A DNA stretch of 64,000 bases from the NCBI RefSeq assembly GCF_000235405.2, contig NC_017095.1:1079501-1143500 (forward strand), given 5' to 3'. The notes below the pieces were generated by a model. The model was not told the DNA's origin, did no database searches, and worked only from the letters and a program-made list of their open reading frames with translations. Both the position numbers and the translations under genes were made by a program. The stretch comes from Fervidobacterium pennivorans DSM 9078. Lineage in GTDB: Bacteria; Thermotogota; Thermotogae; Thermotogales; Fervidobacteriaceae. Positions 39,245 to 54,060 of this stretch are shown in pieces; the stretch's first letter is position 1, and the number at the start of each line of letters is the position of its first letter.

Positions 39245-39272
39245 TTGAAAAAAGATCAAAAAATGATACAAT
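39245..39272 (+). promoter_or_regulatory. Promoter of the 39.3-45.6 kb cluster
   Basis: TTGAAA (39245-39250), a 16-nt spacer and TACAAT (39267-39272). It faces the glycosyltransferase cluster and is the only good plus-strand promoter I see in the 380-nt region after flgA. Confidence 0.55.
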
Positions 39273-39345
39273 ATTAAAAGTTAAACCTTATCCAAGCGTA
39301 ACTGAATTTCTAACCTTAGCTGCTTAAGAGTTAAAAGAGGTGATA

Positions 39346-39553
39346 ATGAGCAAAATGTTTCTGGTTCCTTGTTTAACATATCATCACTATATTTCCTTTC
39401 CTCACTTTTGTGTCATCATTCTTGTTCAATAAATTCTTTGGTACACTTATTAGTTCACTTTTTACAGCAATTTTTTGCCTTCGTTGGAGTTACTTGAGAA
39501 AGGAAGGGGATGGATCATTTGGCTTGAAAACATTATTTTTTTCAGCTTTTTGA
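39346..39553 (+). other. Leader with ribosome site and short hydrophobic reading frames
   Basis: GAGGTG is followed by ATG 39346, which opens a 28-codon frame ending at TAA 39430-39432. The +1-shifted frame is then open to TGA 39551-39553 and is rich in hydrophobic residues ('FLFNKFFGTLISSLFTAIF'). Either a small membrane protein was broken by a frameshift here, or a short leader peptide precedes the glycosyltransferase. No family is recognised. Confidence 0.3.
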
Positions 39554-40614
39554 TAATATCTGCATTTTATTACTACTATTCAACAAAAAGGGTACTACAT
39601 TTAAAAGAAAAAGCATTCAATGATGAAAAATTGAACGCAGAAAATTACTGTGTTTCTGTGATAATACCTGCCAGAAACGAGGAGAAGAATTTATCTAAAC
39701 TCTTGCCTCTTTTACTGGACCAATCTGTCCGACCATATGAAATTATTATAGTTGATGATAATTCAACTGACAACACTTCAGTTGTTGCAAGCAGTTTTCC
39801 AAATGTATGTGTTGTCAAGCTGACGACTGAGCCCCCAAAGGGTTGGATTGGAAAGTCTTGGGCAATTTGGAACGGATATCTAAACTCGCATGGTGATTAT
39901 CTGCTCTTTTTAGATGCGGATGTTGAACCAAGTAATGTATTTATTGAATCGCTTGTTAAAATACATAAGAAGTATGGTGGTTTGCTATCTATATGGCCTT
40001 ATCAACGTTTGGAAAAATTCTACGAACATTTCACATTACCATTTAATCTTATGATTGTATATGCTAGTAACAATTTAGGTTTTCCAAACAAAAAACCTTC
40101 CGGTGCTTTCGGACCAGTGATCTTTACTTCGAAAAAAGATTATCAACTAATAGGAGGACATGAAGCTATAAAAGATAGTGTCCTTGAAGATATCAAACTT
40201 GGAAGACTGTATTCTGAACATGGTTTGAATGTGTCGAATTTTCTTGGGAATCATACAGTTAAATTTAGAATGTATCCATTAGGACTTAAACAACTTTTCG
40301 AAGGCTTTTCAAAAAATATGTCCTCAGGTGCAATAACAGGTGGCTGGTTTTCTTTTATTCTCGCCATTCTTTGGATGTTCGGAATTTATTCCTCGATGAC
40401 TTCAATCTTCACTTTTGGTGGAATTTTGCGTTATTTTGTGACTTCTATTGTGTTATACATCATGGCAAAACCAACAGGAGAATACACTTTTTACGATGCA
40501 TTACTTTATCCAATGTATTACGCGTTTTTCTTGATTGTTTTCTTTAATTCTCTGTATTTAACGATATTCAAAAAAGAGGTTTATTGGAAAGGAAGAAAAA
40601 TTGATGTTCAATAA
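39475..40614 (+). CDS. Family 2 glycosyltransferase, CrtQ/HpnB-like
   Basis: A 379-aa membrane glycosyltransferase. An N-terminal helix (~19-38) is followed by the GT-A core: 'VSVIIPARNEEKNLSKLL', 'IIIVDDNSTDNT', the family mark 'PPKGWIGKSWAIWNG' and the DxD-type 'LLFLDADVEPS'. Two or more C-terminal helices follow. The 'GW-GK-WA' motif is typical of glycosyltransferases in carotenoid (CrtQ) and hopanoid (HpnB) clusters. The start is uncertain: TTG 39475 is the first possible codon, and no clear ribosome site serves it. Confidence 0.82.
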   Translation: MPSLELLEKGRGWIIWLENIIFFSFLIISAFYYYYSTKRVLHLKEKAFNDEKLNAENYCVSVIIPARNEEKNLSKLLPLLLDQSVRPYEIIIVDDNSTDNTSVVASSFPNVCVVKLTTEPPKGWIGKSWAIWNGYLNSHGDYLLFLDADVEPSNVFIESLVKIHKKYGGLLSIWPYQRLEKFYEHFTLPFNLMIVYASNNLGFPNKKPSGAFGPVIFTSKKDYQLIGGHEAIKDSVLEDIKLGRLYSEHGLNVSNFLGNHTVKFRMYPLGLKQLFEGFSKNMSSGAITGGWFSFILAILWMFGIYSSMTSIFTFGGILRYFVTSIVLYIMAKPTGEYTFYDALLYPMYYAFFLIVFFNSLYLTIFKKEVYWKGRKIDVQ

Positions 40615-41257
40615 CAAAATTCCAATTTATTTATCAATCATTGCACTACAATTTCTTTCTGGTAGTGTCATGTATTCATACATATTTGCAAAATTACTTA
40701 GGATTGATTTAACGAAAGTACGTGACGGCAATCCCGGCTCGTCTAATCTTTGGCGTGTCGCCGGATGGAAATGGGGTTTTACAGCACTTGCACTTGATTA
40801 TTTTAAAGGAACACTACCACTTGCCATCTTCATTCTTAAATACGGTCAATCTTTAAATAAATATATAATTTCTCTTGCAGCACTTGCTGGGATTCTCGGA
40901 CATGCTTTTTCACCAATGCTTAAATTCAAAGGCGGCAAAGCAATAGCAACATCTTTTGGTGCATGGTCTGTTCTTACAAAATGGGAAGGCCCCACAATCC
41001 TTGGTGGAGTTTTCACTGCATTTTCTGTGTACCACATGTTAATTGGAAAAAAGCAAACAACTCCTGAAGAGGACACTATCAGAGTTTTGTTCGGTTATAT
41101 AGCACTTCTTGTGTATGTCATATGGAAATCCATGCATGGATATTATGAGCTTACAATTCTTTACATAGGTAATTTGTTTGTTATTCTATATAAGCACAGA
41201 AGGGAATTAGCAAAAATAATATTTCATAATAAGGCTAAAGCGAGGTCCCATGTATGA
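40604..41257 (+). CDS. PlsY-like glycerol-3-phosphate acyltransferase family membrane protein
   Basis: A 217-aa multi-spanning protein. 'VRDGNPGSSNLWRVAGWKWG' and 'GHAFSPMLKFKGGKAIATSFG' are the PlsY phosphate- and glycerol-binding motifs. It differs from housekeeping PlsY in context (inside a biosynthetic cluster, far from plsX), so it may acylate a different acceptor, as CrtO does in staphyloxanthin synthesis. It overlaps the glycosyltransferase by 11 nt and the next gene by 4 nt. Confidence 0.85.
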   Translation: MFNNKIPIYLSIIALQFLSGSVMYSYIFAKLLRIDLTKVRDGNPGSSNLWRVAGWKWGFTALALDYFKGTLPLAIFILKYGQSLNKYIISLAALAGILGHAFSPMLKFKGGKAIATSFGAWSVLTKWEGPTILGGVFTAFSVYHMLIGKKQTTPEEDTIRVLFGYIALLVYVIWKSMHGYYELTILYIGNLFVILYKHRRELAKIIFHNKAKARSHV

Positions 41258-41559
41258 GAACTTCAGAAAAACTATTTTTTCTAATTTTTGTGTTAGTTTT
41301 TTTGTTTCTGATTAATATATCTATATTTTCACAGAATAACAATAATATGAATGTGTATTATCAAAGATTTTTAGATGCGCGTTCTTTCAAAAACGAGACG
41401 GAAATGCAAAAATTGAACTATGCTATAGAAAATGAATTAATGACTAATTTATACGATAATTCCGAAATTCTAAAACTTAAAACACTACCTTCTGAGGTTT
41501 ATGAGAAATTTGGCGAAGAGCTCATGGAGTACAAGAAAAGAACAAGAATGTTTATCTAA
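41254..41559 (+). CDS. Small exported or membrane-anchored protein of unknown function
   Basis: A 101-aa protein. The N-terminal hydrophobic segment (~8-26, 'FFLIFVLVFLFLINISIF') is a signal peptide or anchor, followed by a polar, helical, charged domain. ATGA overlap with the PlsY-like gene indicates translational coupling. I recognise no family. Confidence 0.7.
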   Translation: MRTSEKLFFLIFVLVFLFLINISIFSQNNNNMNVYYQRFLDARSFKNETEMQKLNYAIENELMTNLYDNSEILKLKTLPSEVYEKFGEELMEYKKRTRMFI

Positions 41560-41581
41560 AATAAGTAAAAGGGGAAGAGCT

Positions 41582-42565
41582 ATGATTAAAAATCAATGGT
41601 ATGTTGTTTTGTCTTCAAGTGAATTAAAGAAAGGGCAATTGATTGGGTTAACAAGGTTTGGTGAAAAACTTGCGATGTGGCGTGACGAAAAGGGAGATGT
41701 GCACTGTATATCTGATATATGTTGTCATCGAGGTGCTTCTCTATCTCATGGTAAACTCCTTGCTAATGGTGAAAGATTAATGTGTCCTTTCCATGGTTTT
41801 GAGTATGATCCGACTGGAAAGGTTCAGGCTATACCATCAAATGGTCGAACAGCACCAGTTCCAGAAAATTTCAAAGTGAAATCATACAAAACATATGAAC
41901 TTGCTGATTTTATCTGGATATGGTATGGAGATAACGATCCGCCTTCACCACCAAGTTACTTTGACGATATAGATGATTCATTAGTTTATAGCCAATTCAG
42001 TGAAATTTGGAATGTCCATTACAGCAGAGCTATAGAAAATCAGCTTGATCCCATACATGTTCCTTTTGTTCATTATAATACCATTGGTCGCGGAAATAGA
42101 ACAGTAGCTGATGGCCCTATTGTGAAATGGATTAACGATACTATGTTTTATTTCTACGTTTTTAATAGAGTTGATGATGGGACCCCTGCAAGAAAACCTG
42201 AGGAAATGGAAATTTCTGAAATGAGCAAAGTGTACCTTGAGTTTAAATTTCCAAATATTTGGCAAAATCACATACATGAAAAATTGAGAGTAACAGCCGC
42301 TTTTGTTCCTATCGATGATGAACATACTCTGATATATCTTCGTTTCTACGTAGGATTTACGAAAATCAAATTTATAGACAAGCTTATATCTTTACTTGGT
42401 ATGCCATTCAACAGGAAAGTATTGCACCAAGATAAAGCTGTTGTTGAAACACAGATTCCTAAGAAATCAGAGCTCAAGATGTCAGAGAATCTAATAAACG
42501 GTGATTTACCCATCCTAGAATACAGAAAGAAAAGAGAAAAATTGAAGAGTGTTATTAATGATTAA
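41582..42565 (+). CDS. Rieske [2Fe-2S] non-heme iron oxygenase (alpha-subunit type)
   Basis: A 327-aa protein. The Rieske cluster ligands are Cys47-x-His49 and Cys68-x2-His71 ('CPFHGFEY'). The C-terminal catalytic domain has the mononuclear iron motif Asp156, His159, His164 ('LDPIHVPFVHYN'), with candidate third carboxylates in the tail. 'QWYVVLSSSEL' at the start is typical of ring-hydroxylating and related oxygenases. Such enzymes use O2 and need a reductase or ferredoxin; none is in the cluster. ATG 41582 follows AAAGGGGAAG. Substrate unknown; the neighbours suggest an isoprenoid, lipid or sterol-like compound. Confidence 0.88.
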   Translation: MIKNQWYVVLSSSELKKGQLIGLTRFGEKLAMWRDEKGDVHCISDICCHRGASLSHGKLLANGERLMCPFHGFEYDPTGKVQAIPSNGRTAPVPENFKVKSYKTYELADFIWIWYGDNDPPSPPSYFDDIDDSLVYSQFSEIWNVHYSRAIENQLDPIHVPFVHYNTIGRGNRTVADGPIVKWINDTMFYFYVFNRVDDGTPARKPEEMEISEMSKVYLEFKFPNIWQNHIHEKLRVTAAFVPIDDEHTLIYLRFYVGFTKIKFIDKLISLLGMPFNRKVLHQDKAVVETQIPKKSELKMSENLINGDLPILEYRKKREKLKSVIND

Positions 42566-42577
42566 AGGGGTGAGTTA

Positions 42578-43051
42578 ATGGATATGACAAAACAAAAAAA
42601 TCAAAGTGATAATGAATACGCGATAAAATCATTAGAACAGTTAATCCAATTGTGGACAAAGACGTACAACGATGAAGGTAAGCCCGATTGGTCGCATCTT
42701 TTACCTTATTATGATGAAAATATACATTTTAGGGACACTGTTCAAGAAATATATGGTATCGATGAGTTCAAAGCTATGGTCGAGCGTTTAACAAAGCGCT
42801 CTAAAGAGCTGCATATGAAAATTTTAAACGCAGTTATGGAAGGTAATATCATCTTTGTAGAGTGGAATATGATTATAAACTTCAGAAAGACTAAAACATC
42901 AGTAGTTCACGGTACAAGTAGACTTATTCTCAATGAGAAAGGAAAGATAATAGATCAAAGGGATTACTACGACTTATGGGGTGATATATTCGACAATATC
43001 CCAATATTTGGTAAAATTTATAGAAAATTCATGAAAAGGGTGTTTGGATGA
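42578..43051 (+). CDS. SnoaL/NTF2-like protein
   Basis: A 157-aa alpha+beta-barrel protein. 'LIQLWTKTYNDEGKPDWSHL', 'YYDENIHFRDTVQEIYGIDEF' and 'VEWNMIINFRKTKTSVVHGTS' follow the NTF2-like polyketide cyclase/isomerase pattern. Members bind or isomerise small hydrophobic compounds. GGGGTGA precedes ATG 42578, and the stop overlaps the SDR gene by 4 nt. Confidence 0.78.
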   Translation: MDMTKQKNQSDNEYAIKSLEQLIQLWTKTYNDEGKPDWSHLLPYYDENIHFRDTVQEIYGIDEFKAMVERLTKRSKELHMKILNAVMEGNIIFVEWNMIINFRKTKTSVVHGTSRLILNEKGKIIDQRDYYDLWGDIFDNIPIFGKIYRKFMKRVFG

Positions 43052-44028
43052 GGAAAGAATATAATGGTTGCTCAGTAAGAAGATATTGGTCCCAGTACAA
43101 ATGGTCAAACATATTTGAGATGATACGGAATATGTCCAGCAAGCCAAAAAAATGTTCAGATAGGTTCGACGGAAAACTTGTTGTTATAACAGGAGCAACA
43201 TCGGGTATAGGTTATGAAACAGCAAAAAAGTACGCTTCAAACGGTGCAAATTTACTTACAATAAACAGAAATAAAGCTAAATCGGAGGCTCTATGCAAGG
43301 AAATATCGGAACGTTATGGAACAAAATGTAGTTACATAATTGCTAATTTAAGCAAAATAAAAGATATCAAAAATGTCGTAGAAAAATTAAATTCGCTCGA
43401 TTCAAAAATAGACGTTCTTATTCACAACGCTGGTTTGTATCTCAATAAACTGACTATTACAGAGGATGGTTTCGAAACAAACTTTGTCGTACATTATCTC
43501 GCCCCGTTTATAATAAATTACTCTCTAATTGAAAAGCTAAAGAAAGATAATTCAACCCGTATAGTATTAGTTAGCTCTGAAGGATACAGATTTTCAGCAT
43601 GGGGAATATGCTTAGATGATTTGAACTGGCAAAAGAGAAAATATTCAGGCTTAAAAGCATATGGAGCTGCAAAACTTGCTCAAATTTTGAGTATGCATAT
43701 TTTTGCAGAAATTTTCATTTCTAATAACCTCAATGTTACCATTAATGCTATGCACCCAGGCTTTGTAAGAACAAACACCGGTCAGGACAATGGACCTGTA
43801 TATAAATTTTTCAAAAAGAATTTTTTAGATAAAATATCCCGAGATCCTTCAGAGTCAGCAGAAGCACTTTATTATCTAGGAGTATCTAAAGAAGTCGAAG
43901 GAATAACAGATAAATTCTTCCATTACACTAAAATTGAAGAACTAGCACCTCCTGCAAAAGATATCGAATTAGCAAGGAATTTGTGGAAAAAAACATTAGA
44001 AATTATGAAAGACGCTTGTGGTTTTTAG
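43048..44028 (+). CDS. Short-chain dehydrogenase/reductase, retinol dehydrogenase-like
   Basis: A 326-aa SDR with a ~40-residue N-terminal extension. 'VVITGATSGIGYETAKKYA' is the nucleotide-binding TGxxxGIG, 'IHNAGLYLNKLT' the NAG motif, 'IVLVSSEGY' gives the catalytic Ser, and 'YGAAK' the Tyr and Lys. 'TINAMHPGFVRTNTG' follows. It probably oxidises or reduces a hydrophobic alcohol or ketone made by the cluster. ATGA overlap with the SnoaL-like gene. Confidence 0.88.
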   Translation: MRKEYNGCSVRRYWSQYKWSNIFEMIRNMSSKPKKCSDRFDGKLVVITGATSGIGYETAKKYASNGANLLTINRNKAKSEALCKEISERYGTKCSYIIANLSKIKDIKNVVEKLNSLDSKIDVLIHNAGLYLNKLTITEDGFETNFVVHYLAPFIINYSLIEKLKKDNSTRIVLVSSEGYRFSAWGICLDDLNWQKRKYSGLKAYGAAKLAQILSMHIFAEIFISNNLNVTINAMHPGFVRTNTGQDNGPVYKFFKKNFLDKISRDPSESAEALYYLGVSKEVEGITDKFFHYTKIEELAPPAKDIELARNLWKKTLEIMKDACGF

Positions 44029-44040
44029 AGAGGTGAAAAT

Positions 44041-45642
44041 ATGTTAAAAAAGCAAAGAAAAAAGGTAATCATAGTCGGCGGAGGGATATCAGGACTTACA
44101 GCATCTGTTTACCTGGCGAGAAAAGGTCATAATGTAACACTATTTGAAAAAAACGAGAAGTGCGGTGGTTTGGTAAATACTTTTGAATACAATGGTTTCA
44201 AACTTGAAGGTGGCGCACGCGCACTCGTGAACGCTGGTGTCATTATCCCAATGATTGAAGACCTCGGTTTAGACATAGAGATACTTAAAAATCCTATCAC
44301 AATAGGTATTGAAGATAAGATACTACGTGTCAACGGTGTTGAAAGTTTAGAAGAGTATGCAAAAATTCTAGAAGATATCTATCCTGAAGCAAATAAGGAA
44401 ATTGATGAATTGATATATGTTGAAAAGGAAATACTTGAATACATGAAAATCCTTTATGGCGTTGACAACCCACTCTTTTCTTTCAACAAAATAAAAGAAG
44501 AGGGAAAGCTTTTAGAGATGATGCCACGATACCTAATCTGGTTTTTTAAGTTCTTGAAGACCATAAAAAAGATAAATGAACTAAATGACCCCGTAGAAGA
44601 TTATATTTCAAAATTCATCAAAAACGCTTCTTTAAAAGATATTGTGATACAACACTTTTTCCGAGGTACTCCTTCATTTTTCGCATTGAGCTACTTCTAC
44701 TTATATCTCGATTACATATATCCAAAAGGTGGTGTTGGAACTTTTACACAAAAACTTGCCGAAAAGATAACCGAATATGGAGGTAAAATTTTTACTAATA
44801 CATCAGTTGTAAAAATCATTCCATCAAAAAACATGGTGATTGACAACAAAGGAAATTCACACAATTACGATGAATTGATTTGGGCTACGGATTTGAAAAC
44901 TTTTTACAAAATTCTTGATGAAACAAATCTGCCAAATTACTTGGTAAACAAAATTGAAAAGGAAAAAAATAAGGTGATGAAAGCACGTTCTGCTGAATCA
45001 GTTCTGACGGTATATCTTGGTATAGATGAGCCATCTGACTCGTTTGAGAAGATTTCAACAGGTCACTTCTTCTACACACCAAAAAGAAATGGAATTGGAG
45101 AATTCAACAAGTCTTGGCTTAAAAGGATTATAGAAAATTACGAAAATACAAGCAAAGAGGAAATTCTTAAATGGCTTGAAGGTTTTATTAACTACAACAC
45201 ATATGAAATTTCTATACCGGTTCTAAGAGACAAGAGTATGGCACCAGAAGGCAAGACTGGATTGATTGTAAGTTTCCTTATGGACTATGCTCTTGTCAAA
45301 AAGATAAGTGAAGATGGTTGGTATAACGAATTCAAAGAATACGCTCAAGACATTATAATCAAAAACTTAAAAGAAAGCATATATCCATTCATCGAAAATA
45401 AAATAATCTTTAAGTTTACTTCAACTCCACTTACCCTTGAAAAGATGTATGAAACATCAGAAGGCTCTATCGTAGGTTGGTCTTTTGAAGATGAAATACC
45501 CGTTCCTTCTGGCATTTTCAACATGAAAAAATCGGTTAAAACCCCCTTAAAAAATATATACAAGGCAGGAAAATGGGCATATTCTCCCGCTGGAGTCCCA
45601 ACTGCAATAATTACAGGTAAGTTGGCTGCAGATATGATATAA
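44041..45642 (+). CDS. CrtI/CrtN-like FAD-dependent oxidoreductase (phytoene desaturase family)
   Basis: A 533-aa flavoprotein. '[20 protein letters not shown]' binds the FAD ADP part, '[21 protein letters not shown]' is the second conserved block, and '[21 protein letters not shown]' and the C-terminal '[20 protein letters not shown]' complete the family pattern. CrtI-type enzymes desaturate, isomerise or saturate isoprenoids; the family also includes all-trans-retinol saturase-like proteins. Last gene of the cluster, 12 nt after the SDR. Confidence 0.88.
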
Positions 45643-45827: not shown

Positions 45828-46262
45828 GGTCCGGCGCTGGAACCTCACAGAGATCAGGTGTTTCTCGCCTGGAAAACGACAGAAAGAACAAAAGAAGGAC
45901 CCTGGAAAAAACTGAACGAGTCCTTGAAGAGACTCCGCACAGATCACTTCGATTTCTACCTCTTTCACGCTGTGACCACTTTAGATGAGTGGAAGCCATC
46001 TTTCCACCGGGCGGAGCTGCAGAGGCTTTTTTAAAGGCGAAAGAAGAAGGCCTTATAAGATACAGAGGAAGCATCCATGGCACTCCGTTTCACACTTTCA
46101 CTGCCTGTTACTGCTGCGGTGAGTCCAAGTCATCAGGAATTTCTGTGGTGGATGTGTGACATTGTGGAAAAACAGGGAACGGAAATCAGCAAAGAAGAGC
46201 TGAAAATACTCGAAGAAAAAGCAAAAACAGTGGTGCCTGTTTTCCCTCTGGATCACTCCTGA
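45828..46262 (+). pseudogene. Aldo/keto reductase remnant
   Basis: 45828-46074 reads in one frame as an internal part of an aldo/keto reductase ('LNESLKRLRTDHFDFYLFHA', 'AFLKAKEEGLIRYRG'). 46077-46262 continues in another frame as the C-terminus ('PVTAAVSPSHQEF', 'EELKILEEKAKTVVPVFP'). The N-terminal third and a middle section are missing, so the gene is dead. Its base composition is less AT-rich than the cluster to its left, with Thermotoga-like codon choice by eye. The end overlaps the tail of the next gene by 10 nt. Confidence 0.8.
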
Positions 46263-47836
46263 ATCATGTAGCGCATGATACTTGTTAGCTTTCTTCTGAT
46301 TTTAGCGTTTTCTTCACACCAGAAAGCCACAAAAGAGGGCTGGATTTTGAGGGAGTACTTCTTTGCAAACTCTCTCACCTCGTCTGGCCCTTTCAATCTG
46401 ATTTCAAACTTTACTCCATCGTACCTTCCATGGTTTCTCAAAAATGTATTGATCAATACCTTTTCTTCTTTTCCAAGTTCTCCATATCTTTCTATAAATT
46501 CTGAAAGCCTTCTTCCATTCATTTTATCCAGAGCTTTACTTAAAGTTGCCTTTCTTCCTTCAATATATGGATGTGCCCTGATCATCTCTGCCACAAATCG
46601 CATAGTTTCATATCTCTTGCTCATGAACTCTTTGAATTCTTCGGGATACTCAAGTAACCTGCAAGCTTCCCTAAATTTATCCTTTCTTGATATGTAGAAC
46701 TCCTTTTTTCCTATCTGTGCCATGTACGTTGAAATGAACAACTTTTTTCTTTTAAGCGGTGGCATCTCTTTGATGCTTTTTATCGCTTCTTCAAATCGCA
46801 TCTCTATCTCCAATTTGACTAGTTCATTGTACACGGGAAAAGGTGCTTTGACATTCACAGTAGAAGGTTTTATTAACTTTTTCAGAGTATTTCCCCTGAC
46901 ACTTTGTGTTTTTCCGTTTATAATCTCGGAAAGCCTCCCGGCTGACACCCTTTCTTTTCTGTATGTTCCTACCATGCCTTTAATGAAAGTCCTCAGTTCT
47001 TCTGTATTTGGATACTCTGACACGTTATAGCAGGGCTTCCACATTCTAACCTCATCTAAAAATTCTGAGTGGATCTCTGGAACTGTCAAAGAAGAGATTA
47101 TTTCTGCCGTGAACGCGGTAGAAACAAGGCCAAGGTATTTTTCAATTGTGAAAAGGGTATCAAATGCATCAAAAAGATTGCCTGCTTCTTCGCGATAGTA
47201 TCCAAGCCAGAACACAGCCTTCTGCGAGATGGAATAAGCCCAGATGGGATGTGTTTTTCTTATTCGCCATGCTATGCCATTCAAAGCGCTGACCATACCG
47301 GATGGGTGAGGTACTTTCTTTGAATGTTTGTACGACCGAACATAATGGAATATTGCCTCTGAGATCTTACTCTGCTCTGCGAGTTTCCTAGCCCTTGCAA
47401 GATGCAAGAACGCAGATGTTGGATCATCTACTTCGTACTCCTTTCCCCATATTCTCACGGATCGTGAAGATGATATACCGAACGCTTCGGCGTTTATTAA
47501 CACAGGTAAAGCAACATTACGAGCTATTTTTGACATCGAAGGTAGTCTTTTTTTCAAGTATCTGTACAGCTTCAAATCAGGTTTTCCCAGGTTTCTGGAG
47601 ATACCCAGTTTCTTAGCCATTAAAATGTCTCTTGCCGTTTTTGACCTGCAGACTTTCAGTGCTTTTTCTATCATCTGAAGAGCTGGTTCATACTCACCTC
47701 TCCAGATATGTTTAATCACCTGTGCGAAAACTTTCCAGTTTTCGGGGAAATCATTCTCAAGAAGATAGTTAACAAAAGGAACTGTGAAAGAACCGTATGT
47801 GAATATTGGTCGAAGAATATCCGGTATTTTCTTCAT
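46253..47836 (-). CDS. Large helical protein of unknown function (possible TPR-like repeats)
   Basis: A 527-aa basic, almost all-helical protein. The first ~280 residues resemble tetratricopeptide-type pairs ('KHIWRGEYEPALQMIEKALK', 'ARKLAEQSKISEAIFHYVRS'). Around residue 325-350, 'VSAGRLSEIINGKTQSVRGN' and 'TLKKLIKP' look like the second half of a Cro/XRE-type helix-turn-helix. I do not recognise a named family; a regulator is one guess. ATG 47836 follows AGGGGGA. The IS21 element begins within ~20 nt of its ribosome site, so its promoter has been replaced. Composition matches the foreign genes around it. Confidence 0.65.
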   Translation of the reverse strand: MKKIPDILRPIFTYGSFTVPFVNYLLENDFPENWKVFAQVIKHIWRGEYEPALQMIEKALKVCRSKTARDILMAKKLGISRNLGKPDLKLYRYLKKRLPSMSKIARNVALPVLINAEAFGISSSRSVRIWGKEYEVDDPTSAFLHLARARKLAEQSKISEAIFHYVRSYKHSKKVPHPSGMVSALNGIAWRIRKTHPIWAYSISQKAVFWLGYYREEAGNLFDAFDTLFTIEKYLGLVSTAFTAEIISSLTVPEIHSEFLDEVRMWKPCYNVSEYPNTEELRTFIKGMVGTYRKERVSAGRLSEIINGKTQSVRGNTLKKLIKPSTVNVKAPFPVYNELVKLEIEMRFEEAIKSIKEMPPLKRKKLFISTYMAQIGKKEFYISRKDKFREACRLLEYPEEFKEFMSKRYETMRFVAEMIRAHPYIEGRKATLSKALDKMNGRRLSEFIERYGELGKEEKVLINTFLRNHGRYDGVKFEIRLKGPDEVREFAKKYSLKIQPSFVAFWCEENAKIRRKLTSIMRYMIQE

Positions 47837-47980
47837 CTCAATCCCCCTGTTTCTGTTATATACAAAAAAAATCAAAATATTGTTAATGATAAAATAAAAA
47901 TGTACTGAAAGTGGAATATAAGGATGTACAAAATTGTACATTGATATGATATCCTTTCTCATAGTGAGGAGGGATATCAA

Positions 47981-49183
47981 ATGCAGAACTTAACAGCACA
48001 TTTAAACATGATAAGGGCGATGAAAATGAAACCTAACTTTTCAGAACTTGCAAGAATATATGGGATGGATAGAAGAACAGTTAAAAAATATTATGAGGGT
48101 TATGAAGGAAAACCTAAGAATAGAAATAAACCAAGTAAATTGGACAAATACTATGATGAGATAAAATCAAAGCTTGCTATCAAAGGAGTTACAGTCAAGG
48201 GTGTTTATGAGTATTTAAAATCAAAAGATGAGACAATAGGAACATACTCAAATTTCAATAAGTATGTTAAGAAAAAAGGATTAAAGCCAGAGAAGAAAGT
48301 AAAAGGTCACCCAAGATTTGAGACAGATCCAGGTGAGCAAGCGCAAGTTGATTGGAAAGAGAATATAAAGCTTGTCTCAAGAAATGGAGAGGAGTTTGTT
48401 ATTAATGTTCTTGATTTTAAATTAGGTTATTCAAGATATTGCTGCTTTGAGATAAACAGGACAAAAACTCAAGAAGAATTAATAGAAAGTCTAATAAGAA
48501 TATTCAAAGATATAGGCGGAGTACCTAAAGAGATTTTATTTGACAATGCAGCAGCAGTTGTTGATATAACAGGTGAGAAAATTAAAGTAAATTCAAGATT
48601 TAAAAGTTTTGCAAAAGACTTTGGGTTTGAAGTGAAACTGTGCAAACCAAGACATTCGTACACAAAAGGAAAAGTTGAAGCAGCAAACAAGTTTATAGAT
48701 TGGATACTGCCATATCAGGGTGAATTTGAAACAGAAGAGGACTTAGCAAGGATAATAAAAGAGATAAACGCAAAGGTCAATATGCAGCCAAATCAAACAA
48801 CTCAAGTCCCACCTGCTCTTCTGTTTCAAAAAGAAAAAGAGTATTTACAACCCTTGCCAGACAAAAGGTTAATAGAGAGTTACCTAAATTCCTACAAGTC
48901 AGTTAAAGTCCAAAAGGACTCTCTGATTTACTACAAGGGAAGTAAATACTCTGTTCCACCCGAATACATAGGAAAAACAGTCCAAGTAAAGGAGGTGGAA
49001 AACAAAATTTATATTTATTATAACACAAACCTGTTAAGGATACATGTTATTGATGAAAAAAGTATCAATTATCACGATGAAGATTACAAACAGCTAATGC
49101 TAATGAGAGTTGGTCAAAAAGAAGAGCTTAACAAGATATGTGAGGAGAACGTAAAGAAATTTGATAATCTGTTGAAAAACTAA
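47981..49183 (+). CDS. istA: IS21-family transposase IstA
   Basis: A 400-aa DDE transposase. An N-terminal helix-turn-helix ('NFSELARIYGMDRRTVKKYY') is followed by the integrase-like core with Asp124 ('QAQVDWKE'), Asp188 ('EILFDNAAAVV') and Glu233 ('KGKVEAANKFID'). All three catalytic residues are present, and length is normal. GAGGAGGGA precedes ATG 47981. Confidence 0.95.
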   Translation: MQNLTAHLNMIRAMKMKPNFSELARIYGMDRRTVKKYYEGYEGKPKNRNKPSKLDKYYDEIKSKLAIKGVTVKGVYEYLKSKDETIGTYSNFNKYVKKKGLKPEKKVKGHPRFETDPGEQAQVDWKENIKLVSRNGEEFVINVLDFKLGYSRYCCFEINRTKTQEELIESLIRIFKDIGGVPKEILFDNAAAVVDITGEKIKVNSRFKSFAKDFGFEVKLCKPRHSYTKGKVEAANKFIDWILPYQGEFETEEDLARIIKEINAKVNMQPNQTTQVPPALLFQKEKEYLQPLPDKRLIESYLNSYKSVKVQKDSLIYYKGSKYSVPPEYIGKTVQVKEVENKIYIYYNTNLLRIHVIDEKSINYHDEDYKQLMLMRVGQKEELNKICEENVKKFDNLLKN

Positions 49184-49203
49184 AGAAAGGAGAAAATCTA
49201 AAA

Positions 49204-49968
49204 ATGAGCAACTATGTGAAACTACTTAACAACTTAGAAGAGTTAGGTCTTCACAACATAAAGAATAATCTTGACAAATACTTAGATTTAGTGGCAAGCG
49301 GAGAAAAGAGTATGACAGATGCATTGTATGAACTTAGCAACTTAGAGATAAAAGCCAAAGAAGAAAGGGCTATATTAGGATGTGTGAGGGTGGCAAATTT
49401 CCCATTTATAAAAGGTATAGAAGATTTTGATTTTTCATTTCAGCCAAGTATAAACAAGCAACAGATAATGGACTTAATGAGTTTGAGATTTTTAGAGGGT
49501 AATGAAAATATACTATTTGTCGGAACACCAGGGGTAGGGAAAACGCATCTAGCCACAGCAATAGGTATAGAGTGTGCAAAACGAAGGTATTCAACGTATT
49601 TTATACATTTTCAAGAGTTAATAGCTCAGCTAAAGAAAGCATTATTGGAGAACAGATTAGAGTACAGACTTAAGCATTTTTCGAAATACAAAGTTTTAAT
49701 AATAGATGAGATAGGTTATTTGCCAATAGACAATGATGGAGCAAATTTATTTTTCCAGCTGATATCAAGCAGATATGAGAAGAGCAGCACAATAATAACA
49801 ACTAATGTTGTATTTTCAGAGTGGGGAGAGATATTTGGTGGAGCGACGATAGCAAATGCAATTTTGGATAGGCTACTCCATCATTCTTACGTGATTTTCA
49901 TAAAAGGTCCTTCATACAGATTGCAGTCAAAAACAGTATATTTTAGCAACACAAACCAGCAAAACTAA
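49204..49968 (+). CDS. istB: IS21-family ATPase helper IstB
   Basis: A 254-aa DnaC-like AAA+ ATPase. Walker A 'GTPGVGKT' (107-114), Walker B 'VLIIDEIGYLP', sensor 'STIITTNVVFSEWGEIFGG'. It selects target DNA and activates IstA. It lies 20 nt after istA with AAAGGAG before the ATG. Confidence 0.95.
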   Translation: MSNYVKLLNNLEELGLHNIKNNLDKYLDLVASGEKSMTDALYELSNLEIKAKEERAILGCVRVANFPFIKGIEDFDFSFQPSINKQQIMDLMSLRFLEGNENILFVGTPGVGKTHLATAIGIECAKRRYSTYFIHFQELIAQLKKALLENRLEYRLKHFSKYKVLIIDEIGYLPIDNDGANLFFQLISSRYEKSSTIITTNVVFSEWGEIFGGATIANAILDRLLHHSYVIFIKGPSYRLQSKTVYFSNTNQQN

Positions 49969-50513: not shown

Positions 50514-50625
50514 ACAAATAAGATTTGAATGATTTTGAACGCGTTTTCTTACATAAATTACTAATGTTATACTAAAACTGGGAAATTTTTAATCAATGAT
50601 TTTAAGGAGGAGGGAACAAACCAGC

Positions 50626-52347
50626 ATGAAGTTCTTTTCACTTCCTGAACATATCAGAGAGAGCATAAGAAAATTTGAAAGAAAATACAGAGGATACTAT
50701 CCACTTTTCTTTTTTCTTGAAGCGCTGTTTCTGATTTTCAACATTCTCACCCCTCTTCTCATCAAAAGCACCATCGATAGTGCTTTTTACAAAGGAAGTG
50801 TCAGGGAGATTTTGCTCTTTGCAGGCCTGTATCTCCTCGTTCTGATTCTTCAGTCCTTTGTGATGTACAAACTCAACTATTCAGCAGCCAGATATCTGGT
50901 CAATAACTCACGCATCAGAGAAACAAGGAGCACCTATGCAAAGCTTCTATCTCTTCCCCTCGATCATCTGAGTCCTCAAAACGCAGGTGATTATCTCTCT
51001 GTGTTCACACGGGACATACCAAAGGCAGTTTCAGGGATATACCTTGGAAGATTACAGATTTTATTCAATCTGGGATTTTTCGCCGTTGTTCTTGTGGTGC
51101 TCTTCTTCCTAAACGTGAAGCTAACCATCGCTGTTCTTGTAAGTATTTTTCTGTTTTATCTGTCGACTCTTTTCTTCAAAAAACTCGTCATCAGGACCTC
51201 TCAGAAAGATCAGGAGAGCTATCAAACGTTTATGAAGAGAGCAAGAGAGGTGATCGAAGGAACTTCAACTCTCAAACAGTTCTCTGCTTCTTCACTGCTC
51301 AAAAATTTTCTTGACTCAAGTGCCAGGGAGTGGAGCAGAGCAAATATTAAGTACAGTGTGGCAAGTGAACTATCAAACACAAACATCGATATGAACAGGT
51401 GGATAGGGAGCACCCTTGTACTTGCCTTTGGAATATACCTTCTCTGGAAAGAGGAAATAAGTGTCGGAACTCTTGTTGCCTTTCAAGCCTACATGAACTG
51501 GATATACGACACCGTGAGAATGGTGCTCACAGGTTTGACTACGTTCTTCTCCTCGCTACCAAACTGGGAAAACTTCACGAGAATCTTCTCGCTGCCTTTT
51601 GAGAAAACAAGTGGAAGGAACCTGGAAGAGTTCGAAAAACTGGAAGCTGAACACGTCGAATTCAGCTATAGCGGAAACACAGTACTCACCAATATAGATA
51701 TGAAAATAAAACGGGGTGATAAAATCGCCATAGTAGGGGCTTCGGGAGTAGGAAAAAGCACTCTTGTTTCTCTGTTCAACCGTCTCCTCTCACCCACAAA
51801 GGGTAAAATCCTGATCAACAACATTCCCATCGAGGAGTACTCTCTCTCCTCTCTCAGAAAAAGTATCATCCTTGTTCGATCAAACGACATGCTCTTCGAC
51901 ACCTCAATAAGAAACAACATCACCTTCTTCGAACACTTCCCCAAAGAAGAGATAGAGAAAGTCCTCAAAATATGTGAGTGTGATTTTGTGGAAAGGCTGG
52001 AAAACGGAATAGACACCCCTGTTGGAGAGAAAGGTGCAAAACTCTCAGATGGCCAGAGGCAGAGAATACTTCTTGCAAGAGCTCTTTTGAGAAAGCCAGA
52101 AGTGTTGATTCTGGATGAAGCCACCTCTGGCATAGACAGTGAAACAGAAGAGAGAATACTTGAAAGAATCCTGAAAGAAATAAACACCGTAATCATCATC
52201 TCCCACAGACTTTCTACAATAAAAAAGGCCAGGAAGGTATATGTCCTGGACAGCGGACGTATCCTGGACTCTGGAACTCATGAAGAACTGATGAGCAGAT
52301 GTGAAAGATACAGAGAGCTTCTAGAAAAACAGTTCATAAAGAAGTGA
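50626..52347 (+). CDS. ABC exporter half-transporter (membrane plus ATPase domains)
   Basis: A 573-aa protein. Six membrane helices span ~20-300, then an ATPase domain: Walker A 'GASGVGKST' from residue 371, signature 'LSDGQRQR', Walker B 'VLILDEATSGID' with the catalytic Glu, and H-loop 'ISHR'. The Q-loop position reads 'LVRSNDMLF', with Ser in place of Gln, and the signature has Asp for the first Gly. GGAGGAGGGA precedes ATG 50626. With the next gene it probably forms a heterodimeric exporter; substrate unknown. Base composition is higher in GC than the host genes. Confidence 0.9.
   Translation: MKFFSLPEHIRESIRKFERKYRGYYPLFFFLEALFLIFNILTPLLIKSTIDSAFYKGSVREILLFAGLYLLVLILQSFVMYKLNYSAARYLVNNSRIRETRSTYAKLLSLPLDHLSPQNAGDYLSVFTRDIPKAVSGIYLGRLQILFNLGFFAVVLVVLFFLNVKLTIAVLVSIFLFYLSTLFFKKLVIRTSQKDQESYQTFMKRAREVIEGTSTLKQFSASSLLKNFLDSSAREWSRANIKYSVASELSNTNIDMNRWIGSTLVLAFGIYLLWKEEISVGTLVAFQAYMNWIYDTVRMVLTGLTTFFSSLPNWENFTRIFSLPFEKTSGRNLEEFEKLEAEHVEFSYSGNTVLTNIDMKIKRGDKIAIVGASGVGKSTLVSLFNRLLSPTKGKILINNIPIEEYSLSSLRKSIILVRSNDMLFDTSIRNNITFFEHFPKEEIEKVLKICECDFVERLENGIDTPVGEKGAKLSDGQRQRILLARALLRKPEVLILDEATSGIDSETEERILERILKEINTVIIISHRLSTIKKARKVYVLDSGRILDSGTHEELMSRCERYRELLEKQFIKK
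51705..52218 (+). repeat. 514-bp direct repeat, copy 1 (ATPase domain of first ABC gene)
   Basis: Nearly identical to 53421-53934; I count five base differences by eye. The sequence similarity stops sharply at both ends, although the genes remain homologous. Confidence 0.95.
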
Positions 52348-52365
52348 ACTGGAGGGAAGAAAGAA

Positions 52366-54060
52366 TTGAAAGGGAAAAAACTGCGCATTATGAGAATGAC
52401 ACACATAAAACTTGCCATTTTAACAACCTTGAGTTTGATCCTCTCGAGCTTCTTCTATTCCAGAAGAGTCACTCTGCTGCAAAACGCTATTGACACGGCT
52501 TTACAAAATAAAGGGCTGTCAGCCTTTCTGGGCAATGTCATACTGTTTCTTGGATTTCTCATACTGACGATCGCTTTCGACTTTATCGCCAGTTTCGTCT
52601 CTGCCGTTAACAAAGTGGGAATGTTCAGGAACCTGGTGGAGAGTCAGATAAAACTGATGCTCAACGCCGATACAAACGATTTGAAAAGAAAAAACACGGG
52701 TGAAATAATAACACGGGTATTCGATGACGGGTGGTATGTAATTGATATATACGCTCAGGCACTTCCGGAACTGATATCTCTATCTTTCAAAGTGGCTTTA
52801 CTTGTGGTTGCATTTTACCAGCTCAGCCCCTGGCTTCTTCTGATAGCACTGTTGCTATCTCCTATATACGGCTTCCCTATATCCACCTCCCGAAAAAAAA
52901 TAAAGGATTATCAACAAAAAGAACGTTCAAGCTTTGAAGAGTGCGTCAAGTTCATAAACGAGACTATGAGCGGAATCAACGTTATCAAAGCGTTTGAATC
53001 CAAGAATGTGTTCTATAAAGAATTTGGAAAGCGCTCAAACCTCTGGATGAGCGCCCTGAACAATCTGTTCAATGTGATAGCAAAGACAGAGAGTCTCTTC
53101 CCGTTTCTGAATGGTCTGCTTCCAATAACCGTTGTTACCTTGTCCTCCATTCTCGTTGCAAGAGGAAAGATAACGATCGGAAGTGCGATCTCCTTTTACT
53201 ATTTCGTAAGTGGCTTCTACGGCTCTGTAAGCGGTGTCTACAGCTCTGCTCTGGACTTCATAAGGTTGGGGATATACAGAAGACGTATCCAAGAGATTGC
53301 TCAACTCAATCCTGAAAAAGAAGGTAAAAAAGTGCTCAGAGACATCAAGGAAATACGTTTGCAAAATGTCTCTTTCAACTATCCTGATGGTAAAGAGATT
53401 CTCACTGACCTGAATCTCAGAATAAAACGGGGTGACAAAATCGCCATAGTAGGGGCTTCGGGGGTAGGAAAAAGCACTCTTGTTTCTCTGTTCAACCGTC
53501 TCCTCTCACCCACAAAGGGTAAAATCCTGATCAACAACATTCCCATCGAGGAGTTCTCTCTCTCCTCTCTCAGAAAAAGTATCATCCTTGTTCGATCAAA
53601 CGACATGCTCTTCGACACCTCAATAAGAAACAACATCACCTTCTTCGAACACTTCCCCAAAGAAGAGATAGAGAAAGTCCTCAAAATATGTGAGTGTGAT
53701 TTTGTGGAAAGGCTGGAAAACGGAATAGACACCCCTGTTGGAGAGAAAGGTGCAAAACTCTCAGATGGCCAGAGGCAGAGAATACTTCTTGCAGGAGCTC
53801 TTTTGAGAAAGCCAGAAGTGTTGATTCTGGATGAAGCCACCTCTGGCATAGACAGTGAAACAGAAGAGAGAATTCTTGAAAGAATCCTGAAAGAAATAAA
53901 CACCGTAATCATCATCTCCCACAGACTTTCTACAGTGAGGAAAGCAAGCAAGATCATTTTAATGAACGGCGGAAAGGTGGAAGCTGAAGGAACACATGAA
54001 GAACTCATGGAAAAATCTCCTCTCTACAGAAATATCGTGAAAAACCAGCTTGTGATGTAG
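52366..54060 (+). CDS. ABC exporter half-transporter, partner of the preceding gene
   Basis: A 564-aa protein with six membrane helices (~18-290, sequence unlike the first gene) and an ATPase domain almost identical to it: Walker A from residue 363, signature 'LSDGQRQR', Walker B 'VLILDEATSGID', H-loop 'ISHR', and the same Gln-to-Ser Q-loop change. In the region after the signature, 'LLAGALL' replaces 'LLARALL', losing a well-conserved Arg. TTG 52366 after GGAGGG is the likely start; ATG 52390 is possible. It lies 18 nt after the first gene. Confidence 0.9.
   Translation: MKGKKLRIMRMTHIKLAILTTLSLILSSFFYSRRVTLLQNAIDTALQNKGLSAFLGNVILFLGFLILTIAFDFIASFVSAVNKVGMFRNLVESQIKLMLNADTNDLKRKNTGEIITRVFDDGWYVIDIYAQALPELISLSFKVALLVVAFYQLSPWLLLIALLLSPIYGFPISTSRKKIKDYQQKERSSFEECVKFINETMSGINVIKAFESKNVFYKEFGKRSNLWMSALNNLFNVIAKTESLFPFLNGLLPITVVTLSSILVARGKITIGSAISFYYFVSGFYGSVSGVYSSALDFIRLGIYRRRIQEIAQLNPEKEGKKVLRDIKEIRLQNVSFNYPDGKEILTDLNLRIKRGDKIAIVGASGVGKSTLVSLFNRLLSPTKGKILINNIPIEEFSLSSLRKSIILVRSNDMLFDTSIRNNITFFEHFPKEEIEKVLKICECDFVERLENGIDTPVGEKGAKLSDGQRQRILLAGALLRKPEVLILDEATSGIDSETEERILERILKEINTVIIISHRLSTVRKASKIILMNGGKVEAEGTHEELMEKSPLYRNIVKNQLVM
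53421..53934 (+). repeat. 514-bp direct repeat, copy 2 (ATPase domain of second ABC gene)
   Basis: Pairs with 51705-52218 at an offset of 1716 bp, about 99% identical. Of the five differences I count, two change an amino acid (Tyr to Phe and Arg to Gly). Confidence 0.95.

Follow-up and report, generated by a model that had tools for sequence, protein, structure and literature searches.

A conserved SnoaL-SDR-CrtI gene trio in a Fervidobacterium operon that possibly remodels a pre-existing prenyl chain

The window analysed here, a stretch of 64,000 nucleotides from Fervidobacterium pennivorans DSM 9078 (contig NC_017095.1, positions 1,079,501 to 1,143,500), carries a head-to-tail run of genes at 39475-45642, all on the (+) strand, which consists of six intact open reading frames (ORFs) and one chimeric ORF. 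The intact ORFs encode, in this order, a glycosyltransferase (GT), a PlsY-like acyltransferase, a Rieske oxygenase, a SnoaL-like protein, a short-chain dehydrogenase (SDR) and a flavoprotein of the CrtI superfamily. We find that the genes belong to two separable modules. Module A (SnoaL-SDR-CrtI, hereafter the trio) is the most widely conserved unit, a self-contained three-enzyme set with many hosts from anaerobic lineages, while Module B comprises GT-PlsY-TPR-PEMT-Rieske. The cluster probably alters a long-chain lipid from the cell's existing stock. More specifically, we tentatively suggest, with somewhat less than even confidence, that the operon acts on a prenyl chain already present in the cell, of polyprenol or polyprenyl type, by redox remodelling followed, in Thermotogota, by hydroxylation, glycosylation and acylation.

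Operon organisation

The gene spacing is operon-like and confirms that the cluster is a genuine bacterial operon. GT and PlsY overlap by 14 bp, PlsY and the third ORF (orfX) by 4 bp and SnoaL and SDR by 4 bp, and the remaining intergenic gaps are 12-22 bp, so that the spacing ranges from -14 to +22 bp across the cluster. The overlaps and short gaps bear out the proposal, made in an earlier note on this DNA, that overlapping genes form one operon. Our Pfam calls (GT2, G3P_acyltransf, Rieske with VanA_C, SnoaL_2, adh_short and Amino_oxidase) match the assignments of that note and agree with its description of the enzyme content as being of lipid or isoprenoid type. The same note had counted seven genes; six intact genes stand at the places it gave, whereas the third ORF is a deletion relic (see below). 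Two of the genes can be linked to an earlier publication: an excerpt of PMC5209329 lists the Rieske oxygenase AFG35170 of F. pennivorans DSM 9078 and, three accessions later, AFG35173, a 'phytoene dehydrogenase-like oxidoreductase', in agreement with the gene order in the window. The latter is presented in that excerpt as one of several candidate reductases for the Rieske protein.

Conservation of the SnoaL-SDR-CrtI trio

Scanning a SnoaL alignment against a species-level genome collection yielded 141 relatives, the best 80 of which were analysed. Their SnoaL proteins were 55-70% identical, and the 80 loci span about eleven phylum-level groups, Asgard archaea included. Judged by their record titles, Bacteroidota contributed 43 loci, Spirochaetota 11, Lokiarchaeota 10 and Trichococcus 3, followed by two each from Thermotogota, Chloroflexota, Ignavibacteria and Aminicenantes and single loci from Latescibacterota, WOR-3, Clostridiales, Thorarchaeota and Bathyarchaeota. 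ORFs for SnoaL, SDR and CrtI were found in 75, 74 and 64 of the 80 loci, respectively; all three were present in 60, in identical order each time. The gaps were below 100 bp in 49 of these 60 complete loci, and nine of the 11 wider-spaced ones hold a member of an outer-membrane-protein family (N6) between SnoaL and SDR. ORFs were called by a greedy longest-ORF rule that probably hid some true ORFs. The misses are accounted for by early contig ends (for example in WOR-3), probably by ORFs hidden through the greedy choice, and by spirochaete loci. SnoaL-SDR pairs without a neighbouring CrtI were seen in the spirochaete loci L144, L147, L159, L165, L166 and L091 (L numbers denote loci and G numbers genomes of the analysis, G000 being the own genome), and this pair may be the irreducible core.

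The trio proteins are 42-70% identical to the window proteins in Thermotogota, Bacteroidota, Spirochaetota, Trichococcus and Lokiarchaeota. Moreover, the three proteins co-diverge: their distance matrices, computed on 67 complete trio rows that include 14 Thermotogota loci (L070 and L090 being the same G002 locus), correlate with r values of 0.75, 0.72 and 0.89, and in each case 0 of 500 permutations attained the observed value. SDR and CrtI are fused in one 856-aa frame in a Bacteroidales metagenome-assembled genome (MAG). Other neighbour families are confined to 11 of the 80 best loci at most; those that recur are DUF2141, outer-membrane proteins and an unnamed family, N7. Searches of open-licence PMC texts gave no description of the trio among the papers listed.

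Members of N7 (303-360 aa) stand by the trio in Lokiarchaeota and Bacteroidota, sometimes in tandem (L109, L112, L136, L155 and L113, L135, L140, L158), and the member that was tested had no Pfam match. TspO genes were seen near the trio at L070/L090, L069 and L119.

The trio proteins

Three of the protein alignments used 20 rows each. The first trio gene (42578-43051, +) encodes a SnoaL/NTF2-like protein (PF12680, 2.4e-11), whose structure model (predicted local distance difference test, pLDDT, 79.6) has an NTF2 fold that is nearest to limonene epoxide hydrolase and other NTF2-fold proteins (TM 0.5-0.64). Its profile gave no convincing match among solved structures, the best one (E=0.04) looking spurious. 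The second gene (43048-44028, +) encodes an SDR (PF00106, 3.6e-29) that resembles retinol dehydrogenases and light-dependent protochlorophyllide reductases (LPOR). Residues G49, G53, I54, G55, S177, Y205 and K209 are invariant over the 20 rows, so that both the TGxxxGIG motif and the Ser-Tyr-Lys set are present. The top NCBIfam model, PRK06197, scored 140.6 bits, which is under its cut-off, and LPOR enzymes are the second and third solved-structure matches of the SDR profile.

The third gene (44041-45642, +) encodes a 533-aa flavin adenine dinucleotide (FAD) oxidoreductase of the CrtI superfamily. It scored 91.9 bits against crtI_fam (cut-off 238.1), and for none of the 25 top-ranking NCBIfam models listed did the score reach the cut-off. 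Its structure model (pLDDT 89.3) fits the gamma-carotenoid desaturase 4rep best (Z 30.3, root-mean-square deviation 3.9 over 449 residues), and PPOX and renalase folds are also among the matches. Of the 67 complete trio rows, 25 went into the CrtI trees. One tree, with 51 rows, places the trio proteins in a clade of 33 rows (SH-aLRT 100) which is separate from the 14 carotenoid enzymes sampled, a group that includes the CrtI proteins encoded next to phytoene synthase (PSY) in G008 and G054. The 33-row clade also holds second copies from Thermotogota, Sphaerochaeta and L095 as well as two Thermotogota relatives encoded beside CrtO acyltransferase genes, and the trio CrtI proteins of Thermotogota split into at least three separate groups. 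This tree omits eight rows (three UfaD-type proteins, HpnE, Leptolinea, Shinella and two long Thermotogota paralogues) because two earlier trees had placed UfaD differently.

Tandem CrtI genes occur in G070, G078, G042 and G045. Paired genes of the CrtI superfamily, of about 510 and 635 aa, were also observed at L068:8058-11482 (G023) and L082:9200-12635 (G026); the shorter gene of these pairs is sister to the trio clade, and GT-PlsY adjoins the pair in L082.

Module B and its association with the trio in Thermotogota

We surveyed 103 genomes of the phylum. Rieske genes were found in 23 and SnoaL genes in 22; 12 genomes have SnoaL without Rieske, 13 have Rieske without SnoaL, and ten have both, one of which (G090) holds merely a SnoaL remnant. 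The overlap corresponds to a hypergeometric P of 0.006, genomes being treated as independent despite their relatedness. The full set of GT, PlsY, Rieske, SnoaL, SDR and CrtI stands together in G000, G067, G068, G069 and G070, and G078 holds it in a different order. The earlier note had considered that the genes might not occur together elsewhere; they do. Furthermore, GT, PlsY and Rieske occur without the trio in G074, G071 and G066, while SnoaL-SDR-CrtI occurs in six genomes without a Rieske match (G023, G020, G029, G025, G033 and G034, with a split CrtI in the last). Since each set thus occurs without the other in relatives, the window operon is the two modules joined.

The first gene of Module B (39475-40614, +) encodes a membrane GT2 glycosyltransferase (PF00535, 1.1e-22) that is CruG/HpnB-like, although its NCBIfam scores (93.7 bits for CruG and 92.7 bits for HpnB) are both far under the cut-offs. 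GT2 pairs with PlsY in other Thermotogota as well. In the window, the PlsY-like acyltransferase (40601-41257, +; PF02660, 1.4e-33) is a second, divergent one: it fails the equivalog cut-off of TIGR00023 (92.7 versus 137.2 bits), whereas the canonical PlsY of the same genome, at C1:1362822-1363364, scores 167.2 bits.

The 101-aa third ORF (orfX; 41254-41559, +) has no Pfam match. It aligns with the N-terminal region of a TPR-like protein (37% identity to the copy in L053), and its final 21 aa correspond to the C-terminal end of a PEMT/ICMT-like one (62%). TPR-like and PEMT/ICMT-like genes both lie between PlsY and Rieske in L052, L054 and L056. Because both parts match and both genes sit at this place in relatives, the ORF is a chimeric relic of an internal deletion, by which the TPR and PEMT genes of Module B were mostly lost from the window operon. 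A count of seven functional genes is thereby ruled out.

The Rieske gene encodes a non-haem iron oxygenase of VanA type (PF00355, 1.4e-25; PF19112, VanA_C, 8.9e-13). Its start was corrected from 41501 to about 41582, homologues aligning from about residue 28, which places the gene at 41582-42565 (+). Counted from 41501, residues C74, H76, C95, H98, D183, H186, H191 and D311 show no deviating residue over 22 rows, in a test that tolerates gaps in up to two rows. The window protein thus has the features of a Rieske oxygenase, namely CxH...CxxH, a 2-His-1-carboxylate site and a VanA_C domain; we take the former motif to supply the cluster ligands and the latter site to hold the iron. Rieske ORFs of 324-331 aa are present in G090, G065, G066, G078 and G002, and a short one (259 aa) only in G075, so that a reading of several copies as broken is rejected.

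With regard to the neighbours of Rieske genes, a protein of Tocopherol_cycl type (PF14249, tested in L059) is encoded next to the Rieske gene in L058, L059, L061 and L063 and near it in L046; some of the genomes concerned have phytoene synthase and others lack it. UvdE is found by Rieske in L073, L077 and L079; MsrAB occurs in L058 and photolyase in L094. The presence of photolyase, UvdE and MsrAB in the vicinity of either the trio or Rieske hints at a setting of light or oxidative stress.

Candidate substrates

The host genome, a single contig of 2,166,381 bp, has one trans-prenyl (polyprenyl) synthase and one cis-prenyltransferase. Searches of this genome gave no match to squalene/phytoene synthase (PF00494, a model that matches seven of 14 control genomes), to squalene-hopene cyclase (PF13243) or to UbiA. 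The lack of a phytoene or squalene synthase that had been remarked upon for the cluster therefore holds genome-wide. A hopanoid or sterol route in this genome is ruled out by the lack of PF00494 and PF13243, and a prenylquinone as substrate by the lack of UbiA.

PF00494 was also surveyed in 50 SnoaL-bearing genomes from the 80 best loci, 43 of them showing all three trio ORFs at the locus. It was present in 28 (in 27 over the cut-off, T. ilyis having a match below it only) and absent in 22 at E<=1e-3, and 20 of these 22 belong to the 43 with complete trios. For instance, no match was obtained in any of the five Lokiarchaeota tested, nor in Trichococcus K1Tr, T. alkaliphilus, Puteibacter or Carboxylicivirga M1479. 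Ketoacyl synthase, UbiA and cis-prenyltransferase were surveyed in the own genome and in 17 hosts from the 80 best loci. Among these 18 hosts, cis-prenyltransferase was found in 17, being missed in one Sphaerochaeta MAG, and UbiA in 16. In the 11 archaeal hosts, ketoacyl synthase was absent (four) or represented by short fragments (seven, with a best E of 8.7e-8 and no more than 62 of 252 positions covered). These fragments count as over the cut-off and archaeal control genomes match too; we read them as thiolase-like. The cis-prenyl route is thus the most nearly shared marker among those tested, by elimination and not as proof. Since the own genome gave no match for the other isoprenoid end routes tested and the cis-prenyl route is nearly shared, a substrate of polyprenol type is suggested by elimination. 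The alternative in the earlier note that the substrate may be an existing isoprenoid or unusual lipid is supported.

Relation to known pathways

The gene set invites comparison with the staphyloxanthin cluster (CrtO-CrtP-GT2-CrtM-CrtN type, as on an S. equorum plasmid), which likewise combines a CrtI-type enzyme, a GT2 and an acyltransferase in an operon. It differs in several respects: the own genome has no CrtM-type synthase, the cluster has no aldehyde dehydrogenase, PlsY replaces CrtO (PF18927 is not among the cluster genes), SnoaL, SDR and Rieske are additional, and the trio CrtI lies outside the CrtI/CrtN/CrtP clade. Within the phylum, PSY is present in five of the 103 genomes (G008, G009, G051, G054 and G055), none of which has a SnoaL gene. 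G008 holds the carotenoid gene set CrtI-PSY-CruF-DUF92-GT-CrtO, and close to it lie a gene of the Tocopherol_cycl family and a Rieske relative; its GT and Rieske proteins are 43% and 50% identical to those of the window. In contrast to the F. pennivorans genome, G008 has PSY and a CrtI of the carotenoid clade. In G054, CrtI-GT-CrtO and PSY-CrtI lie on separate contigs, and the GT-adjacent CrtI is sister to the trio CrtI. These carotenoid-linked relatives of the GT and Rieske proteins of Module B provide the strongest support for the staphyloxanthin analogy drawn in the earlier note. As an organising principle, however, the analogy is not supported: SnoaL-SDR-CrtI is the most widely conserved unit, its CrtI is of another clade and the own genome lacks the precursor enzyme. 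An excerpt of PMC11673897 mentions a partial carotenoid pathway within Fervidobacterium only for F. gondwanense.

A second comparison is offered by the furan-fatty-acid operon under ChrR/sigma-E control (NTF2-SDR-UfaD-UfaO-UfaM). According to an excerpt of PMC7380195, Rhodobacter UfaD, a relative of phytoene dehydrogenases, desaturates methylated phospholipid acyl chains; UfaO (DUF1365) is required for the furan, for which three other genes of the operon are dispensable. We found the arrangement NTF2-SDR-FAD oxidoreductase-DUF1365-CFA on plasmids recorded for Salinivibrio and for Pseudoalteromonas; in Pseudoalteromonas it adjoins sigma factor and ChrR genes. The trio has the same order, NTF2-SDR-CrtI-superfamily flavoprotein, and its SnoaL is distantly homologous to the NTF2 protein (hhalign probability 98.1%, E 1.3e-13, 31% identity). 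On the other hand, the seven cluster ORFs gave no Pfam match to DUF1365 (UfaO) or CFA (UfaM), and the window flavoprotein has 533 aa as against 419 aa. The window proteins are 26% (SDR) and 21% (CrtI) identical to those of Salinivibrio. The UfaD branch, with 4.6-5.1 changes per column, is too long to place, and its position differs between trees. Gene order and, given the NTF2 match, one gene are thus common to the trio and the ChrR operon, and the acyl-specific genes are not in the cluster.

Proposed function and alternatives

According to the polyprenol proposal, the trio would act on the allylic alcohol of a pre-existing chain of polyprenol or polyprenyl type. The SDR would interconvert alcohol and enal, the CrtI-like flavoenzyme would saturate, desaturate or isomerise the chain beside the enal, and the NTF2-fold SnoaL protein might shift a proton or water on the enal, as an isomerase or hydratase. 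In Thermotogota, the Rieske oxygenase could then add oxygen to the trio product when traces of O2 are present, after which GT2 would add a sugar and the divergent PlsY an acyl chain. The substrate class, all of these reactions, their order and the glycosylation and acylation of the same product are inferred. A precedent for the SDR is DHRSX, which, in an excerpt of PMC11607601, converts polyprenol to polyprenal and dolichal to dolichol; it shows no more than that an SDR is capable of these two redox steps. The likeness to the eukaryotic DHRSX/SRD5A3 route described there is one of proposed logic alone: an SDR gives the enal, a second redox enzyme acts and the SDR reduces back. The trio would have a CrtI-like flavoenzyme and SnoaL instead of SRD5A3, and its SDR is likened to DHRSX by logic. 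By this analogy the trio could be a horizontally spread prokaryotic counterpart of DHRSX/SRD5A3, at work in anaerobic bacteria and Asgard archaea and leading from polyprenol to a dolichol-like or an oxidised or reduced polyprenoid, with a new class of glycosylated, acylated polyprenoids as the Thermotogota product; we regard this more specific version as doubtful.

Several observations weigh against a polyprenol substrate. The homologous NTF2-SDR-UfaD operon works on acyl chains where UfaD was tested (PMC7380195). Rieske oxygenases depend on O2, whereas PMC11673897 describes Fervidobacterium as an anaerobe. The closest match of CrtI, by sequence as well as by fold, is a carotenoid desaturase. 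PSY is present in more than half of the SnoaL-bearing genomes surveyed, and the absences in the others may be gaps because most genomes are MAGs. DUF2141, near the trio in 11 loci, is also found in a C30-type carotenoid cluster, and in six spirochaete loci SnoaL-SDR stands with no CrtI next to it. Finally, a common marker such as the cis-prenyl route is no proof of a common substrate.

Among the alternatives, remodelling of acyl lipids in the manner of the furan pathway, in which the CrtI-like protein would desaturate fatty acyl chains, SDR and SnoaL process the product and PlsY and GT build glycerolipids, is rather unlikely. The gene order shared with Salinivibrio and Pseudoalteromonas, the SnoaL homology, the activity of UfaD on phospholipid acyl chains (PMC7380195) and the presence of PlsY in Module B speak for it, while the lack of UfaO and UfaM among the cluster genes, the low CrtI-UfaD identity with its unplaceable branch, and archaeal trio hosts that have no full-length ketoacyl synthase match speak against it. 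We also consider it unlikely, slightly more so, that the substrate is a small non-lipid or tetrapyrrole-like molecule and the lipid look a superfamily resemblance; the match of the SDR profile to protochlorophyllide reductases, the PPOX and renalase folds and the TspO neighbours would fit such a substrate, but the top CrtI match is the carotenoid desaturase and the GT2 and PlsY companions are of lipid type.

A carotenoid-type glyco-ester pathway of staphyloxanthin logic, with a polyene supplied by an unrecognised synthase or by partners, is, in our judgement, a little less likely still. The CruG/HpnB-like GT, the GT and Rieske relatives in and near the G008 set, CrtI-GT-CrtO in G054, the tandem CrtI genes, the 4rep fold, the DUF2141 neighbour and the frequent co-occurrence with PSY all argue for it. 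Against these stand the lack of PF00494 in the own genome and in 22 of the 50 surveyed, isolates of Trichococcus, Puteibacter and Carboxylicivirga M1479 among them, the five PSY-bearing genomes of the phylum that lack SnoaL, and the position of the trio CrtI outside the 14 carotenoid enzymes sampled. That the genes are chance neighbours with separate housekeeping roles would agree with the genomes of the phylum that hold SnoaL or Rieske alone, but is very improbable, given the order conserved across many phyla, the co-divergence and the overlapping ORFs; for the trio it is already contradicted.

A trio that is conserved at this level from Thermotogota to Lokiarchaeota must have a useful role. 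Action on polyprenols, if true, would change the view of how lipid carriers are made in prokaryotes, Asgard archaea included. Moreover, where a genome lacks phytoene synthase, the annotation 'phytoene desaturase' should not be taken to mean carotenoid synthesis.

Promoter, mobility and flanking DNA

A weak sigma-70-like match, TTGAAA-16-TACAAT (10/12 consensus), lies upstream of the operon at 39245-39272 (+). Promoter-like sites are not enriched (20 observed versus 27.2 expected in shuffles), so that the single promoter claimed in the earlier note is without statistical backing.

As judged by reading of translations, the window copy adjoins flagellar genes and has an IS21-type pair downstream. 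Outside the window, a decayed C-terminal piece of a second, trio-type CrtI was found at about C1:1226965-1227294 (G000; L051:7966-8295), at the position where the sister species G068 and G069 hold an intact cluster. The three parts of this piece share 78-82% identity with the G069 CrtI as against 46-77% with the window CrtI. This greater closeness of the vestige to the G069 gene suggests loss and re-acquisition; the simplest reading of the sequences is that the cluster was lost where it once stood and that a divergent copy took up a new place. The IS21-like transposase and ATPase genes, read from translations at 47981-49968, are a possible vehicle of the relocation.

Between the cluster and this pair, an ORF of 575 aa (46253-47980, - strand) without a Pfam match has relatives in the Rieske-bearing Thermotogota loci L065 and L066. 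Further downstream, two adjacent ORFs resembling ATP-binding cassette half-transporters (50596-54060) have in common a 300-nt stretch (51685-51984 and 53401-53700) of 96% identity, which points to recent gene conversion.

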